Shown in pieces: positions 5,053-30,674 of a stretch of 30,674 nucleotides of DNA. The DNA is taken from the IMG/VR virus record IMGVR_UViG_3300038701_000521, positions 1 to 30,674 of that record. The stretch is one strand, 5' to 3'. The DNA is from a virus. The position numbers and the translations under genes are program-made. Every line of letters starts with the position of its first letter. Position 1 is the stretch's first letter. Below the pieces are notes generated by a model that was not told the origin of the DNA, ran no database searches, and was given only the letters and a program-made list of their open reading frames with translations.

Positions 5053-5841
5053 TTAGTAGCCCCATACCTTTCGAGCTTCAGCGAGAGTTACGGGATCGTT
5101 CCAATAAAAGCTACTGGAATAATCTGGTGAAAAGAGAGTAGCAATATCTTTTGGATCGTCAAAGATGTCAAGCATTTTTTCTGCTGACTGTGCGGCTCTC
5201 GTAATTTGCACAATTAATTCGTCTGCCAATTCGTGTGTCATTTCGTATGTCGCAGACTTCTTAGGTGACACATAAGTAATAAGAATTTGATGGTCTGGTT
5301 TCATCTTCTGGTACAGTGCCATCTGCCTTGCATGGCTGTCACTCATTTGAGACGGGACGCGATGCGTTGTTTTAAGGTCAACACATAGCGGCTTGCCATC
5401 ATACATATCAGCCATAGGCGGGAAGTTATAATCGTCATATCCAATAAATGGATCGATCACGCCCTCAAGCTTTAACTCTAACGCATTTTGAGTAGATGTC
5501 GGGAAGCCGAATGGCTCAAAGGCATTAATAGTCTGCTCAATGAAACCTCTAAGGCTGTCACACTCCTTGTCACGCTTTGCCTCGTCCAAACCTTGCAGGG
5601 CAGTATTCTTATTGAAATACCTTGTCGCCTCTGCCACGGCACTGTCTAAATCGCCAAACTCAGACTTGATGTAATGGTTATAGCCAACCTCTGTCGCCAA
5701 CCCACGGGTCATGGCAGGGCTTCCAGAGCCATAGCAACCGTAGATGTATGAGAGTACCCAACTTGCAGGTTGAGCCATCAGCTTATTAATGCTACTGGCT
5801 GACCATGCCTTCTTGCCTATTTTTGATAGTGGTGTTGTCAT
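5053..5841 (-). CDS. PD-(D/E)XK exonuclease (RecB/Cas4-like)
   Basis: 262 residues with the marks of phage PD-(D/E)XK exonucleases. There is an N-terminal RG motif (TRGLATEVGYNHY, ~45-57), then LEGVIDPF (~125-132), then ADMYDGKPLCVDLKTT (144-159) giving the D...D-x-K active site at D145, D155 and K157. Last comes QMALY (173-177), the Q-x-x-x-Y motif. It has an AAAGGAG-type ribosome site before the ATG. Such enzymes resect double-strand ends for recombination or degrade host DNA. Being beside an SSB-like gene suggests a recombination pair, though no annealase is visible here. Confidence 0.85.
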   Translation of the reverse strand: MTTPLSKIGKKAWSASSINKLMAQPASWVLSYIYGCYGSGSPAMTRGLATEVGYNHYIKSEFGDLDSAVAEATRYFNKNTALQGLDEAKRDKECDSLRGFIEQTINAFEPFGFPTSTQNALELKLEGVIDPFIGYDDYNFPPMADMYDGKPLCVDLKTTHRVPSQMSDSHARQMALYQKMKPDHQILITYVSPKKSATYEMTHELADELIVQITRAAQSAEKMLDIFDDPKDIATLFSPDYSSSFYWNDPVTLAEARKVWGY

Positions 5842-5842
5842 G

Positions 5843-6496
5843 TTATTGCTCTCCTTTTTGCTTTTCTAAATCAGCTAATCGTTTCATTTCTTTTAATGCG
5901 CCTTCGTTTGTGTCGTAGAAATTGAGCGCATAAGGAGTGTTAGGATCTGATTTTCTGTAAATTTGATAAGCCGCTGCGGCTGTGCCGATTTCATCCTCTA
6001 GTTTTTTACCCTCTTTTCCCGCAAGGGTAGTTACCCATCCCGCTCTACAATGAGTTGTTTCGCATGTATGCCAACTTCCCATATTAAGAGCTTTATCTTT
6101 ACTTGCCGCCTCATATACCTTTTGATGTATATTTTCGATAATAGGAATCTTAAGGTCTGCGCCTTTAAGGCCTGAGACTTCAAGGTATGCGCCTTCAAGG
6201 TTTGCGCCTCTAAGGTCTGCGCCTCTAAGGTCTGCGCCTCCAAGGTTTGCGCCTCCAAGGTCTGCGCCTCTAAGGTCTGCGCCTCTAAGGTCTGCGCCTC
6301 CAAGGTTTGCGCCTCTAAGGTATGCGCCTGTAAGGTCTGCGCCTGTAAGGTCTGCGCCTGTAAGGTTTGCGCCTTCTCTAAAGGCTTGTTTTACAGCCTC
6401 ACCCAACCTAAGAGCTGCGTTCTTTAATTTTTTACCATCAAACTCAAAAGTGAATTGAGTTTCATTTGTAAATCTGTTTTTAATTTCTAGTTTCAT
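5843..6496 (-). CDS. Pentapeptide-repeat protein with a Cys/His-containing C-terminal domain
   Basis: 217 residues. Residues ~1-42 are a capping segment. About 14 A(D/N)LxG pentapeptides follow (~43-115), predicted to form a right-handed square beta-helix. The C-terminal ~100 residues carry [18 protein letters not shown] and a helical tail, a module I recall in other phage proteins without known function. The repeats are nearly identical at the DNA level (15-bp unit), which explains long shadow frames on the same strand. Some pentapeptide proteins mimic DNA and bind gyrase, but nothing here proves that. It has a strong AAAGGAG site and its own promoter upstream. Confidence 0.85.
6178..6377 (-). 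repeat. 15-bp tandem repeats inside the pentapeptide gene
   Basis: Imperfect units such as GCCTCTAAGGTCTGC are repeated about 13 times in register with the A(D/N)LxG codons. Neighbouring units often match completely, indicating recent expansion or homogenisation. Confidence 0.85.
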
Positions 6497-6527
6497 TTTA
6501 GTATCTCCTTTTTAAAAATGTATCCTT

Positions 6528-6555
6528 AATATAATCAGATATAATTAGATGTCAA
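6528..6555 (-). promoter_or_regulatory. Sigma-70-like promoter before the pentapeptide gene
   Basis: On the minus strand there is a perfect -35 TTGACA (6550-6555), a 16-nt spacer and TATATT (6528-6533). This would start RNA about 25 nt before the pentapeptide-protein ATG. It lies in the gap after the nuclease stop at 6561, allowing separate expression of the downstream replication block. Confidence 0.6.
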
Positions 6556-6560
6556 GATTA

Positions 6561-6959
6561 TTATTTCCAATTAGGTACTATATCTATCATTTCTTTTGCA
6601 AGTTTTTTATATTTAGGGGCATCAATAACAATTAGCTCTATATCAGGGTGGTATTTTGCCATACGTTTTATCTTTGTTTTACTTCGTGCATCCATCCAAC
6701 CTTTTATTTCGTGGAAAACTATATCATCGTTGTTATTTACAATTCTAAAATCTGGTATGTAAGATCGAACACCTCTTTTAATACCTTCAAACCAAAAAGT
6801 TTCAGGTTCATGTTCCCATTCTTTTATTTCACCTTTTTTCTTTAACCATTCTAGGTAGTGAGCGTAATTAACTTCCCATGAACTTCTGTAATAGTTTTTC
6901 TTCCCCCCGATTGTTTCCCATGATTGTTTCCATACAGTCTTCTTCTTTATTCTGGTAAT
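6561..6959 (-). CDS. Small PD-(D/E)XK endonuclease (DUF1064-like), apparent ATT start
   Basis: A 133-codon frame with no usable ATG/GTG/TTG near its 5' end. From an ATT at 6959 it reads ITRIKKKTVWKQSW, then YYRSSWEVNYAHYLEWL, then VRSYIPDFRIV and IVFHEIKGWMDARSKTKIKR. The P-D-F and H-E-I-K strings are the PD-(D/E)XK active-site pattern. The R-S-x-W-E motif and the SKTKIKRMAKYHP segment resemble small phage endonucleases of the DUF1064 kind. GGAG ends 7 nt before the ATT, an ideal spacing. The only nearby ATG (6923) is in another frame and stops quickly. The product is a basic, probable DNA-junction or damage endonuclease. The start codon is the uncertain part; the coding frame itself is well supported. 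Confidence 0.75.
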   Translation of the reverse strand: MTRIKKKTVWKQSWETIGGKKNYYRSSWEVNYAHYLEWLKKKGEIKEWEHEPETFWFEGIKRGVRSYIPDFRIVNNNDDIVFHEIKGWMDARSKTKIKRMAKYHPDIELIVIDAPKYKKLAKEMIDIVPNWK

Positions 6960-6986
6960 TTTATTTCTCCTGTATAAATAAATGAT

Positions 6987-7014
6987 TTGACATATAAAGT
7001 AGAATGTGCATTAT
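6987..7014 (+). promoter_or_regulatory. Candidate rightward promoter
   Basis: TTGACA (6987-6992, 6/6), a 16-nt spacer, then CATTAT (7009-7014, 4/6 to TATAAT). RNA would begin near 7021 and run into the HTH gene at 7101. The -10 overlaps that of the leftward promoter on the opposite strand. Confidence 0.5.
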
Positions 7015-7037
7015 ACAGAAATAGAGGTAAAAAACAA
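7010..7037 (-). promoter_or_regulatory. Candidate leftward promoter
   Basis: On the minus strand TATAAT (7010-7015, perfect -10) is preceded by 16 nt and TTGTTT (7032-7037, weak -35). RNA would begin near 7003, about 45 nt before the ATT-start nuclease gene. The -35 lies inside the inverted repeat at 7019-7072. Confidence 0.5.
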
Positions 7038-7100: not shown

Positions 7101-7295
7101 ATGAACGAGACAGAATTAACACCCCAACAACTAGCAGACCGATGGAAGATCACCCGCGTCTGGCTATATAATTTAAAGCGTGATAAGCGTGTGCCAAAGT
7201 ACCGCCAGAAGGGTACAGGTAAACGTGCGCGGATCACATTTCCGCTTGAGGAAGTGATTAAATTTGAAAAGGAACACTTTGATTTAAGGGGATAG
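7101..7295 (+). CDS. Small helix-turn-helix DNA-binding protein (excisionase/MerR-like)
   Basis: 64 residues, almost all one winged-HTH-like domain: LTPQQLADRWKITRVWLYNLKRD (helix-turn-helix, ~6-28), followed by a basic turn and the ITFPLEEVIKFEKEH strand/helix. This is the helix-turn-helix form common to excisionases and small phage regulators. It is first in the rightward operon, just behind overlapping divergent promoters and an inverted repeat, so it probably regulates one or both. It might instead serve as a DNA-binding terminase small subunit, since the large subunit lies two genes downstream. Confidence 0.8.
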   Translation: MNETELTPQQLADRWKITRVWLYNLKRDKRVPKYRQKGTGKRARITFPLEEVIKFEKEHFDLRG

Positions 7296-7301
7296 AGGGT
7301 T

Positions 7302-7448
7302 ATGGGCGAAGTAATTGAATTTATGTCGAGAGCCGAAATGGAGAAGTTAGCCCTGCAAGTGGAAAGAGAGATAGCTCGCCTAGAAGCAGAGAGAATAATG
7401 GAAGATATAAAAGAATTTTTAAAGGAGAAGCATGATGTACACGACTAA
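7302..7448 (+). CDS. 48-aa charged coiled-coil peptide
   Basis: Starts MGEVIEFMSRAEMEKLALQV and continues as one long Glu/Lys/Arg-rich helix with heptad spacing, ending KEKHDVHD. It begins 6 nt after the HTH gene stop with GAGGG just upstream, and overlaps the next start by 17 nt. Operon packing and helical composition support it. Function unknown; a packaging partner is possible by position only. Confidence 0.55.
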   Translation: MGEVIEFMSRAEMEKLALQVEREIARLEAERIMEDIKEFLKEKHDVHD

Positions 7449-13404: not shown

Positions 13405-14256
13405 ATGAAAAAAATCACAGCATATAAAGCATTTAATAAAGATATGAAATGTCGCGGATTTCAGTATGAAGTCGGCAAAACATATAAACATGACGGTGAG
13501 GTAAGTTTGTGTAATAGCGGGTTTCACGCCTGTACCAAGCCTTTAGATATCTTAAATCATTATGACTTAATTGATAGTAAATTTGCAATTGTCGAAGTTA
13601 TTAAGCCTAAAAAGAAAAAAGGCGGTGACACAAAAATAGCAACCGCAGAGATTACGATTAAAGCAGAATTAACACTACCTGATTTTATAAAAAACAGTGT
13701 TGATTATTTAATTAACGCAACAAAATCTAAAGCATCAAGTGGTGACTACACAAAGCAAGCATCAAGTGGTTACAGAGCACAGCAAGCATCAAGTGGTTAC
13801 GGCGCAAAGCAAGCGTCAAGTGGTGACTACGCACAGCAAGCATCAAGTGGTGACGACGCAAAACAAGCATCAAGTGGTTACGGCGCAAAGCAAGCGTCAA
13901 GTGGTGACGGCGCACAGCAAGCATCAAGTGGTGACTACACAAAGCAAGCATCAAGTGGTGACTACACAAAGCAAGCGTCAAGTGGTGACTACGCACAGCA
14001 AGCATCAAGTGGTGACTACACAAAGCAAGCATCAAGTGGTTACGGCGCACAGCATACTTGCGAAGGTGAAAAATCAGTAATAGCAAGCTCTGGTCGTCAC
14101 TCACAAGTTAAAGGCGTTAAAGGTACATGGATTTCACTAGCAGAATATAAATACGGTGAGTGCGTTGGTTTCGCGACTGGCTGTATTGGAAAGAAGGGGC
14201 TTAAGCCAGATACTTGGTATAAAGCTCAAGATGGCAAGTTAGTGGAAGTAAAATAA
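13405..14256 (+). CDS. DUF7666-type protein with twelve ASSG nonapeptide repeats
   Basis: 283 residues. The N-terminal ~70 (YKAFNKDMKCRGFQYEVGKT, then LCNSGFHACTKPLDILNHY) match the DUF7666 head found in phage proteins. Next comes a tandem of twelve 9-residue units ASSG(D/Y)xxxQ (~110-217). A capping part follows (IASSGRHSQVKG...GTWISLAEYK...DTWYKAQDGKLVEVK). Gly and Ser at fixed spacing suggest a regular beta-solenoid, comparable in idea to the pentapeptide protein at 5843. It has its own promoter and strong ribosome site. Function unknown; surface binding or a DNA-mimic role are both possible. Confidence 0.8.
   Translation: MKKITAYKAFNKDMKCRGFQYEVGKTYKHDGEVSLCNSGFHACTKPLDILNHYDLIDSKFAIVEVIKPKKKKGGDTKIATAEITIKAELTLPDFIKNSVDYLINATKSKASSGDYTKQASSGYRAQQASSGYGAKQASSGDYAQQASSGDDAKQASSGYGAKQASSGDGAQQASSGDYTKQASSGDYTKQASSGDYAQQASSGDYTKQASSGYGAQHTCEGEKSVIASSGRHSQVKGVKGTWISLAEYKYGECVGFATGCIGKKGLKPDTWYKAQDGKLVEVK
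13732..14055 (+). repeat. 27-bp tandem repeat, 12 units
   Basis: Units such as GCATCAAGTGGTGACTACAC are in register with the ASSG codons. The GCATCAAGTGGT core is almost invariant (GCGTCAAGTGGT in a few), while the last 15 nt vary between three or four types arranged in mosaic order. Unequal exchange is the likely cause. Frames in other phases and on the other strand stay open only because of the repeat. Confidence 0.9.
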
Positions 14257-29616: not shown

Positions 29617-30674
29617 TCAGCTCCAATCATTATCTGTGTCTGGTATTTCCGTCCAAATTGTAGTGTCATCGCTCTCACTGCTCCAAGTTTTTATTGTGTC
29701 GTCTATATCAGACCAAATTGTAGTGTCATCACCCTGATCTGACCAGTTACCGTCACCACCATCGATTGCATCCCAACGGAACGCCACAACTGTAGCATTA
29801 GTAGGTGTTATTGTCAACGATGCTGATGTCGCTGTAACAATAACTGTCCGTCCTAACTCTAGCGTTGGATTAGTGGCAGATACCTCAATAGACGCGCCTG
29901 TAGCATCAACAATAGCGTCTACCTCAGTTAATACCGTTGCGTTGGTTGGTGTTATCTGAATAGAGCTTGTTGTCGCCACGACAATAGCATCAAATTCTGT
30001 CGTTACTGTCGCGTTAGTAGGCGTGATCTGAATAGATGCCGTTGTCGCTGTAACTTCTGTATCAGTACCCGCTAAAATTGTCGCGTTAGTCGGTGTAATA
30101 ACGATAGAATTGGTTGTTGCTGTTACCTCAACGTCCTGCTCTGTCGTCACTGTTGCGTTAGTCGGTGTGATCTGAATAGAGTTTGTCGTTGCCGTTACAT
30201 TAGCACTCGCGCCTGTCGTTACTGTCGCGTTAGTAGGTGTAATTTCAATAGACGCAGATGTTGCTGTCACATTAGCGTCTGCCCCAAGTGAGACAACCGC
30301 GTTAGTCGGTGTAATTTGGATCGAGGACGTTGTAGCCTCAACGATAGCATCAGCACCAAGATTAAGTGTTACGTTGGTAGGCGTGATATTAATTGACGCG
30401 GTGGTTGCCGTTACATCTAAATCACTCTGTGCTACAACCGTTGCGTTAGTAGGTGTTATGTTAATAGACGCAGTAGTTGCATCAACAATAGCATCAACCT
30501 CAGTTAACGCTGTCGCGTTAGTAGGCGTTACGTTAATCGTACTTGTTGTTGCTGTCACAAGGGTGTCAATATCTGTCACTACCGTAGCGTTAGTAGGCGT
30601 GATATTAATTGAACCTGTGGTTGCAGTCACATCAAGATCAACATCTGCTATCACTGTGGCGTTGGTTGGTGTCT
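29617..30674 (-). CDS. Repeat-rich surface protein, cut at the right edge (partial)
   Basis: At least 350 residues; the frame runs on beyond the window, and the GTG at 30654 is only an internal codon. It holds twelve or more 24-residue units of the form D(A/x)xVxATTxSIxITPTNATVxxx, Thr/Asn/Ile/Val-rich and probably beta-stranded. A short end domain follows (FRWDAIDGGDGNWSD...TTIWSDIDDTIKTW...TTIWTEIPDTDNDWS) with Trp-Ser/Thr repeats. It lies next to a tail-fibre-like gene, so a fibre shaft or adhesin is likely. The gene's start and full length cannot be seen. Confidence 0.75.
   Translation of the reverse strand, partial: TPTNATVIADVDLDVTATTGSINITPTNATVVTDIDTLVTATTSTINVTPTNATALTEVDAIVDATTASINITPTNATVVAQSDLDVTATTASINITPTNVTLNLGADAIVEATTSSIQITPTNAVVSLGADANVTATSASIEITPTNATVTTGASANVTATTNSIQITPTNATVTTEQDVEVTATTNSIVITPTNATILAGTDTEVTATTASIQITPTNATVTTEFDAIVVATTSSIQITPTNATVLTEVDAIVDATGASIEVSATNPTLELGRTVIVTATSASLTITPTNATVVAFRWDAIDGGDGNWSDQGDDTTIWSDIDDTIKTWSSESDDTTIWTEIPDTDNDWS
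29800..30674 (-). repeat. 72-bp tandem repeat array (continues off the right edge)
   Basis: About twelve diverged units of 72 bp in register with the 24-residue protein repeat; the block coding for ITPTNAT is the best conserved. Units differ at many silent sites, so the array is older or under selection, unlike the near-identical 27-bp array at 13732. Confidence 0.8.

Follow-up and report, generated by a model that had tools for sequence, protein, structure and literature searches.

The nuclease family DUF1064 (PF06356) was predicted to resemble TnsA or T7 endonuclease I (PMC1189080). The members of DUF1064/phrog_190 found in this analysis are mostly about 290-310 aa in length, with a half containing HTH and NUMOD3-like parts on the N-terminal side of the catalytic half. 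T7 endonuclease I is a small stand-alone PD-(D/E)XK protein characterized by a domain-swapped dimer and by junction cleavage, and TnsA of Tn7 has a C-terminal domain and the partners TnsB and TnsC. In the F-CphI/DHHRN homing endonucleases, a phage resolvase-type catalytic domain is located at the C-terminal side of a homing enzyme (PMC6083498), although the catalytic motif is that of Endo VII and not PD-(D/E)XK. Regarding non-canonical starts, those of E. coli infC (ATT) and Streptomyces sigR (GTC) were experimentally shown and are repressed by IF3 (PMC5472188); AUU initiation of infC and its repression by IF3 are established.

The window (the whole stretch of viral DNA analysed, 30,674 nucleotides) is a linear contig fragment of 30.7 kb and carries a gene for a nuclease that shares with DUF1064/phrog_190 the sequence family, the PD-(D/E)XK motifs and the predicted TnsA/T7 endonuclease I-like fold, but that consists of the catalytic half only and has a candidate ATT start, which, unlike the starts of infC and sigR, was read from the DNA sequence alone. 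Like T7 endonuclease I it is a small stand-alone protein with motifs in the order E, PD, ExK, whereas the identity between the two is about 20%. Elsewhere in the window, a protein encoded on the plus strand (13405-14256) has a central part in which a QASSGDYT/YGAK-like motif is repeated many times in tandem, and a long run of ITPTNATV repeats is encoded at the contig end on the minus strand (29617-30654), probably as part of a structural protein that lies close to the end of the record or is truncated there.

The nuclease gene and its product

The nuclease gene (6561..6959) is located on the minus strand and consists of 132 open codons followed by TAA, read from 6959 down to 6561. The sequence-only reading had proposed a PD-(D/E)XK nuclease frame at this place without naming the strand; the open frame was upheld and assigned to the minus strand, the plus strand there having several stops. 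The nucleotide identity to the homologue L090 at the first, second and third codon positions was 0.66, 0.77 and 0.47, respectively, and thus lowest at third positions, as in a coding gene. The GC content over the region of the gene (6400-7000) was 0.29-0.32, versus 0.42 for the whole window, which is in line with a recent acquisition as far as base composition can indicate it.

The product contains the motifs Y-R-S-S-W-E29, Y-I-P69-D70-F and H-E84-I-K86-G, and the catalytic residues E29, D70, E84 and K86 are all intact. In an alignment of 38 sequences, R25, S26, W28 and E29, P69, D70 and F71, and E84, K86 and G87 (ExKG) were invariant, and the window nuclease kept 35 of the 36 columns conserved at 97% or more in the 37 homologues. 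The PF06356 profile gave 29.1 bits, above the Pfam gathering cut-off of 24.7, and phrog_190 (annotated as Holliday junction resolvase) was matched with an E value of 4e-21 over profile positions 166-290 of 338, corresponding to its catalytic half. No match to PF05367 (T7 endonuclease I family) was listed for the nuclease, a profile search with PF05866 (RusA) gave no match for the nuclease or the window (tblastn, none of note), and no meaningful match was obtained in a sequence search of the PDB. In the nuclease tree, the window copy was placed on a long branch (0.71, versus a median end branch of 0.24).

In an AlphaFold2 model (pLDDT 91.9), residues 1-10 were poorly ordered (about 51) and the fold began near residue 11, so that a start at the ATT would give a complete domain. 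The best structural match in the PDB was TnsA (VIA Z score 8.8 over 120 residues; Foldseek E value 9e-4), yet the identity to it is 11-12%, and the C-terminal domain and the partners of TnsA distinguish it from the window nuclease; lower matches were the catalytic domain of the homing endonuclease I-Bth0305I (Z score 6.1) and T7 endonuclease I on a junction (Foldseek probability 0.92). The fold matches agree with the resemblance predicted for DUF1064. From motifs, Pfam score and fold, the gene almost certainly encodes a PD-(D/E)XK nuclease, and the earlier identification holds as that of a genuine, well-conserved protein of DUF1064 type.

Start codon, leader and homologue N-termini

The nuclease frame is closed by an in-frame TAA located 18 codons 5′ of the ATT, and the first in-frame ATG is at 6695 (residue 89), past all catalytic residues. 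Between the two no ATG, GTG or TTG occurs in frame, which bears out the claim that a usual start is missing. A start at ATG 6695 was rejected, as the whole active site would be lost, and so were a start at the out-of-frame ATG 6933, as the conserved W-x-x-IGG sits in the main frame, and a frameshift at the six-G run (6903-6908), as the alignment has the conserved W-x-x-I-G-G-K in one frame across the run.

The candidate initiation codon ATT (6957..6959, minus strand) was confirmed to stand exactly 7 nt behind AGGAG (6967..6971, minus strand), a Shine-Dalgarno (SD) sequence read directly and found at exactly this distance from 0.06% of window positions (chance 0.0006), and at 5-9 nt from 0.3%. 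Among the start candidates, the ATT alone is preceded by an SD. In most of the neighbouring leftward genes of the operon, a similar AGGAG or AAGGA leader closely precedes the ATG or TTG by a few bases, and the sequence upstream of the ATT resembles an ordinary phage leader. As for the promoter proposed ahead of the ATT, a perfect -10 element of a leftward transcript, TATAAT (7010..7015, minus strand), was read directly about 50 nt upstream, but the -35 element is poor and a consensus scan made no call. An RNA hairpin hiding the SD was no stronger than in shuffled sequences (z 0.47). A small upstream ORF of 10 codons, MSNHLFIQEK followed by a stop (6961..6993, minus strand), ends 1 nt before the ATT and contains the SD; a coupling of the two is possible, but the arrangement may be due to chance.

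A gene starting with AUU should have no canonical start and an AUU at the proper distance from an SD, and the window has both. Natural AUU starts are very rare. A search of viral contigs for a second copy of the start site, the window's own record being left out, gave 0 matches with G or T. On the signals in the DNA, we consider it an even question whether AUU is used as the start in nature.

The homologues, comprising 77 distinct sequences of at least 45% identity, gave a different picture. It had been expected that they would begin with Met at the position of the ATT, and homologues reaching well upstream in frame had been named as evidence against that start; none began there, and all but four were extended in frame at the N-terminus by over 80 codons, in most cases by 130-220. 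By that criterion the ATT-start reading is weakened, although the gene is real, lacks a usual start and has the ATT ideally placed behind the SD. The window, in which the frame is closed 18 codons before the ATT, does not encode this extension, which consists of HTH plus a NUMOD3-like part. In the representative L127 the extension folds into helical HTH-like units, and NUMOD3 (PF07460) was matched in 4 of 29 family members. Relatives show two features of homing endonucleases, a domain that targets DNA and a location inside a target gene; the window copy has neither.

Besides the window copy, four copies stand alone (L133, L177, L178 and L182). Relative to the ATT position, their first ATG or GTG is at -4 codons in L133, at -5 or +3 in L177, at +11 in L178 and at +8 in L182, and the conserved region implies that a start is needed at or before about residue 9. 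Divergent homologues of the nuclease were also found on two contigs (L183 and L184) of one Candidatus Woesebacteria MAG.

The rusA slot and broken rusA genes

Five relatives (L018, L016, L011, L015 and L012) were tied to the window phage through the terminase. As a marker of the slot, a divergent small HTH gene (7101..7295, plus strand; weak HTH_17 match) was used, which is 60-75% identical in the RusA-bearing relatives; this gene and the gene at 7432 were present in all five, and the downstream exonuclease-like PDDEXK gene (5053..5841, minus strand; phrog_69 exonuclease, 3.5e-5) in three (L018, L016 and L011, 62-87% identical). Beyond the HTH gene, away from the terminase, each of the five carries rusA (PF05866, E values of 5e-11 to 5e-14) and none a homologue of the nuclease. 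The rusA gene is divergent from and adjacent to the HTH gene in L018, L016, L011 and L015, which matches the arrangement of the nuclease gene in the window. In L012, rusA has the opposite orientation and is separated from the HTH gene by other genes. The three closest rusA genes (L018, L016 and L011) have the direction and SD spacing of the nuclease gene and nearly its distance to the divergent gene: GGAG precedes their ATG by 7 nt, and the HTH gene starts 139-140 nt away from this ATG; for the ATT of the window the corresponding distances are 7 nt, to AGGAG, and 142 nt. A promoter-like TTGACA-16-TATATT for the next gene (6528..6555, minus strand; 11 of 12 consensus bases) stands behind the nuclease stop, and a TTGACA element toward the next gene was found behind rusA in L018 as well. 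That next gene (5843-6496, minus strand) encodes a pentapeptide-repeat protein, was not found in the syntenic relatives, and has similar repeats in Vibrio phage CP-T1.

RusA is of another family with no sequence similarity to the nuclease and has an ATG start. The leader of the window could not be shown to be homologous to those of rusA: for L011, L016 and L018, between 1 and 9 of 300 shuffles scored as high, and for L015, 171 of 300. RusA was absent from the window by PF05866 profile and tblastn; the contig being a linear fragment, one may be encoded in sequence missing from it. With RusA in the slot of the relatives and none in the window, the window has one predicted junction-cutting enzyme at the place where a different one would be expected, and the nuclease very probably occupies the rusA slot of this phage lineage.

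Pieces of broken rusA genes were found around other members of the family, in many phages and prophages. The nuclease begins in frame with a RusA start in L116 (MIQFTIPGAPVAKGR), L098 (ITFEIPGRPVPKGRPRH) and L127 (MTNELQFTVPGQPFGK), and in L130 VPMVPVAKGR and a stop precede the nuclease ATG immediately. Directly behind the nuclease stop, a RusA end is encoded in L127 (MNGVVWRDDRQVVDARQKKRYAETPGVVVIVREL) and likewise in L124, L174, L108 and L157. Using profiles made from 23 RusA proteins and a threshold of 6 bits, RusA pieces reaching the threshold were detected upstream at 11 and downstream at 12 of the 77 loci, whereas equally sized control windows at a greater distance gave 0 upstream and 0 downstream, and the reverse-strand control gave 1 and 0, respectively, the single match (L152) being an oppositely oriented RusA end beside the nuclease. 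The upstream pieces were N-terminal (profile positions 3-53) except in L118, where the RusA core was matched weakly (6.9 bits), and the downstream pieces were always C-terminal (77-146). Both ends were present in L127 and L174; in such loci the RusA core with the PDxDN motif was lost, which indicates replacement and not a clean insertion. Among 50 nuclease-bearing records, RusA occurred only as C-terminal pieces and never whole. On the nuclease tree, which was made from few columns and has many weak forks, the RusA types were distributed much like shuffled labels, and this scatter suggests, but does not force, many separate entries into rusA. No published report of rusA disrupted by homing-type nucleases was found in the open-access literature.

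Origin and use of the nuclease

As an explanation of the locus, we propose that a minimal stand-alone DUF1064/phrog_190 nuclease displaced RusA and is translated weakly from AUU, a proposal to which we give an even chance. In the family, nucleases with a DNA-targeting N-terminal half would enter rusA and replace RusA, and the loss of RusA would be tolerated by the phage because a nuclease resembling T7 endonuclease I or TnsA may itself resolve branched DNA. The window copy would be derived from such longer members by loss of the targeting half, its catalytic domain being retained in an operon with replication and recombination genes. The strong AGGAG, 7 nt away, would direct initiation to the AUU, and with such a start translation would be weak and IF3-sensitive, which, as a speculation, may limit a nuclease harmful in excess. 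The window nuclease is somewhat more probably a functional resolvase than not; from slot and fold, it most likely does the work of RusA, cutting Holliday junctions and replication forks for DNA packaging.

The absence of a usual start codon would also be explained if the gene were an untranslated remnant, in which the cassette lost its N-terminal half or the start codon was mutated and the catalytic part fell silent; the 80-220 additional N-terminal codons of nearly all homologues and the long branch of the window copy point in the same direction. We regard this as doubtful, since an intact frame of 132 codons, the conserved columns and catalytic residues, an SD at a distance rarely met by chance, and a leader spacing and a promoter for the next gene that have been retained as in the rusA-bearing relatives would fit only a very recent loss. 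Alternatively, the true start may be ATG. The ATT of this record would then be an erroneous base from sequencing or assembly, or a minority variant of the population would have lost its start codon by mutation. One base change would restore the usual context of the lineage (GGAGAAATAAAATGACA stands before another gene in L015), and the other likely genes of the window begin with ATG, GTG or TTG, as follows from how they were listed. Consensus errors, however, are rare in assembled contigs, and no second record of the locus showing ATG was obtained (0 matches, the window's own record left out); such an origin of the ATT is unlikely.

Re-initiation, by which ribosomes leaving the 10-codon ORF (6993-6961) would restart at the ATT one base on, would keep the ATT as the start and agrees with the position of this ORF (ATG-TCA...AAA-TAA), which ends 1 nt before the ATT with the SD inside. 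It was considered very improbable, as the ORF lacks its own SD, no such ORF is present in the rusA leaders of L018, L016 and L011, and short ORFs are common by chance. The function of the product can be questioned as well, as it may be a homing-type endonuclease, and thus selfish DNA, instead of a resolvase, and the wider family could likewise consist of homing-type enzymes. The longer relatives, which combine HTH with NUMOD3-like sequence (PF07460 in 4 of 29) and are located inside broken rusA genes, the resemblance of the fold to I-Bth0305I and the example of F-CphI, a phage resolvase domain in a homing enzyme (PMC6083498), speak for this; but the window copy has neither the DNA-targeting half nor flanking RusA pieces, no intron or intein was seen, and the nuclease stands alone in a resolvase slot, making a homing enzyme distinctly unlikely here. 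A stand-alone nuclease that displaced RusA and is translated weakly from AUU is the reading we retain.

That a PD-(D/E)XK nuclease stands in the place of RusA, and that relatives of this nuclease are found within broken rusA genes, was missed in the sequence-only reading and is more informative than the ATT start. As a tentative extension, which we hold to be rather less probable than its opposite, the phrog_190 nucleases may be mobile cassettes that repeatedly enter different rusA types, remove the core of RusA and assume its function; the window would then represent the end point, a domesticated catalytic core devoid of the targeting half, with AUU keeping the dose low. An AUU start in a phage would join very few characterised cases, and such starts are missed by gene finders. 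With a nuclease recurring within broken rusA genes, the displacement of one junction-cutting enzyme by another becomes open to testing, as does the idea of a possibly selfish nuclease that compensates the phage by performing the function of the gene that it destroyed.
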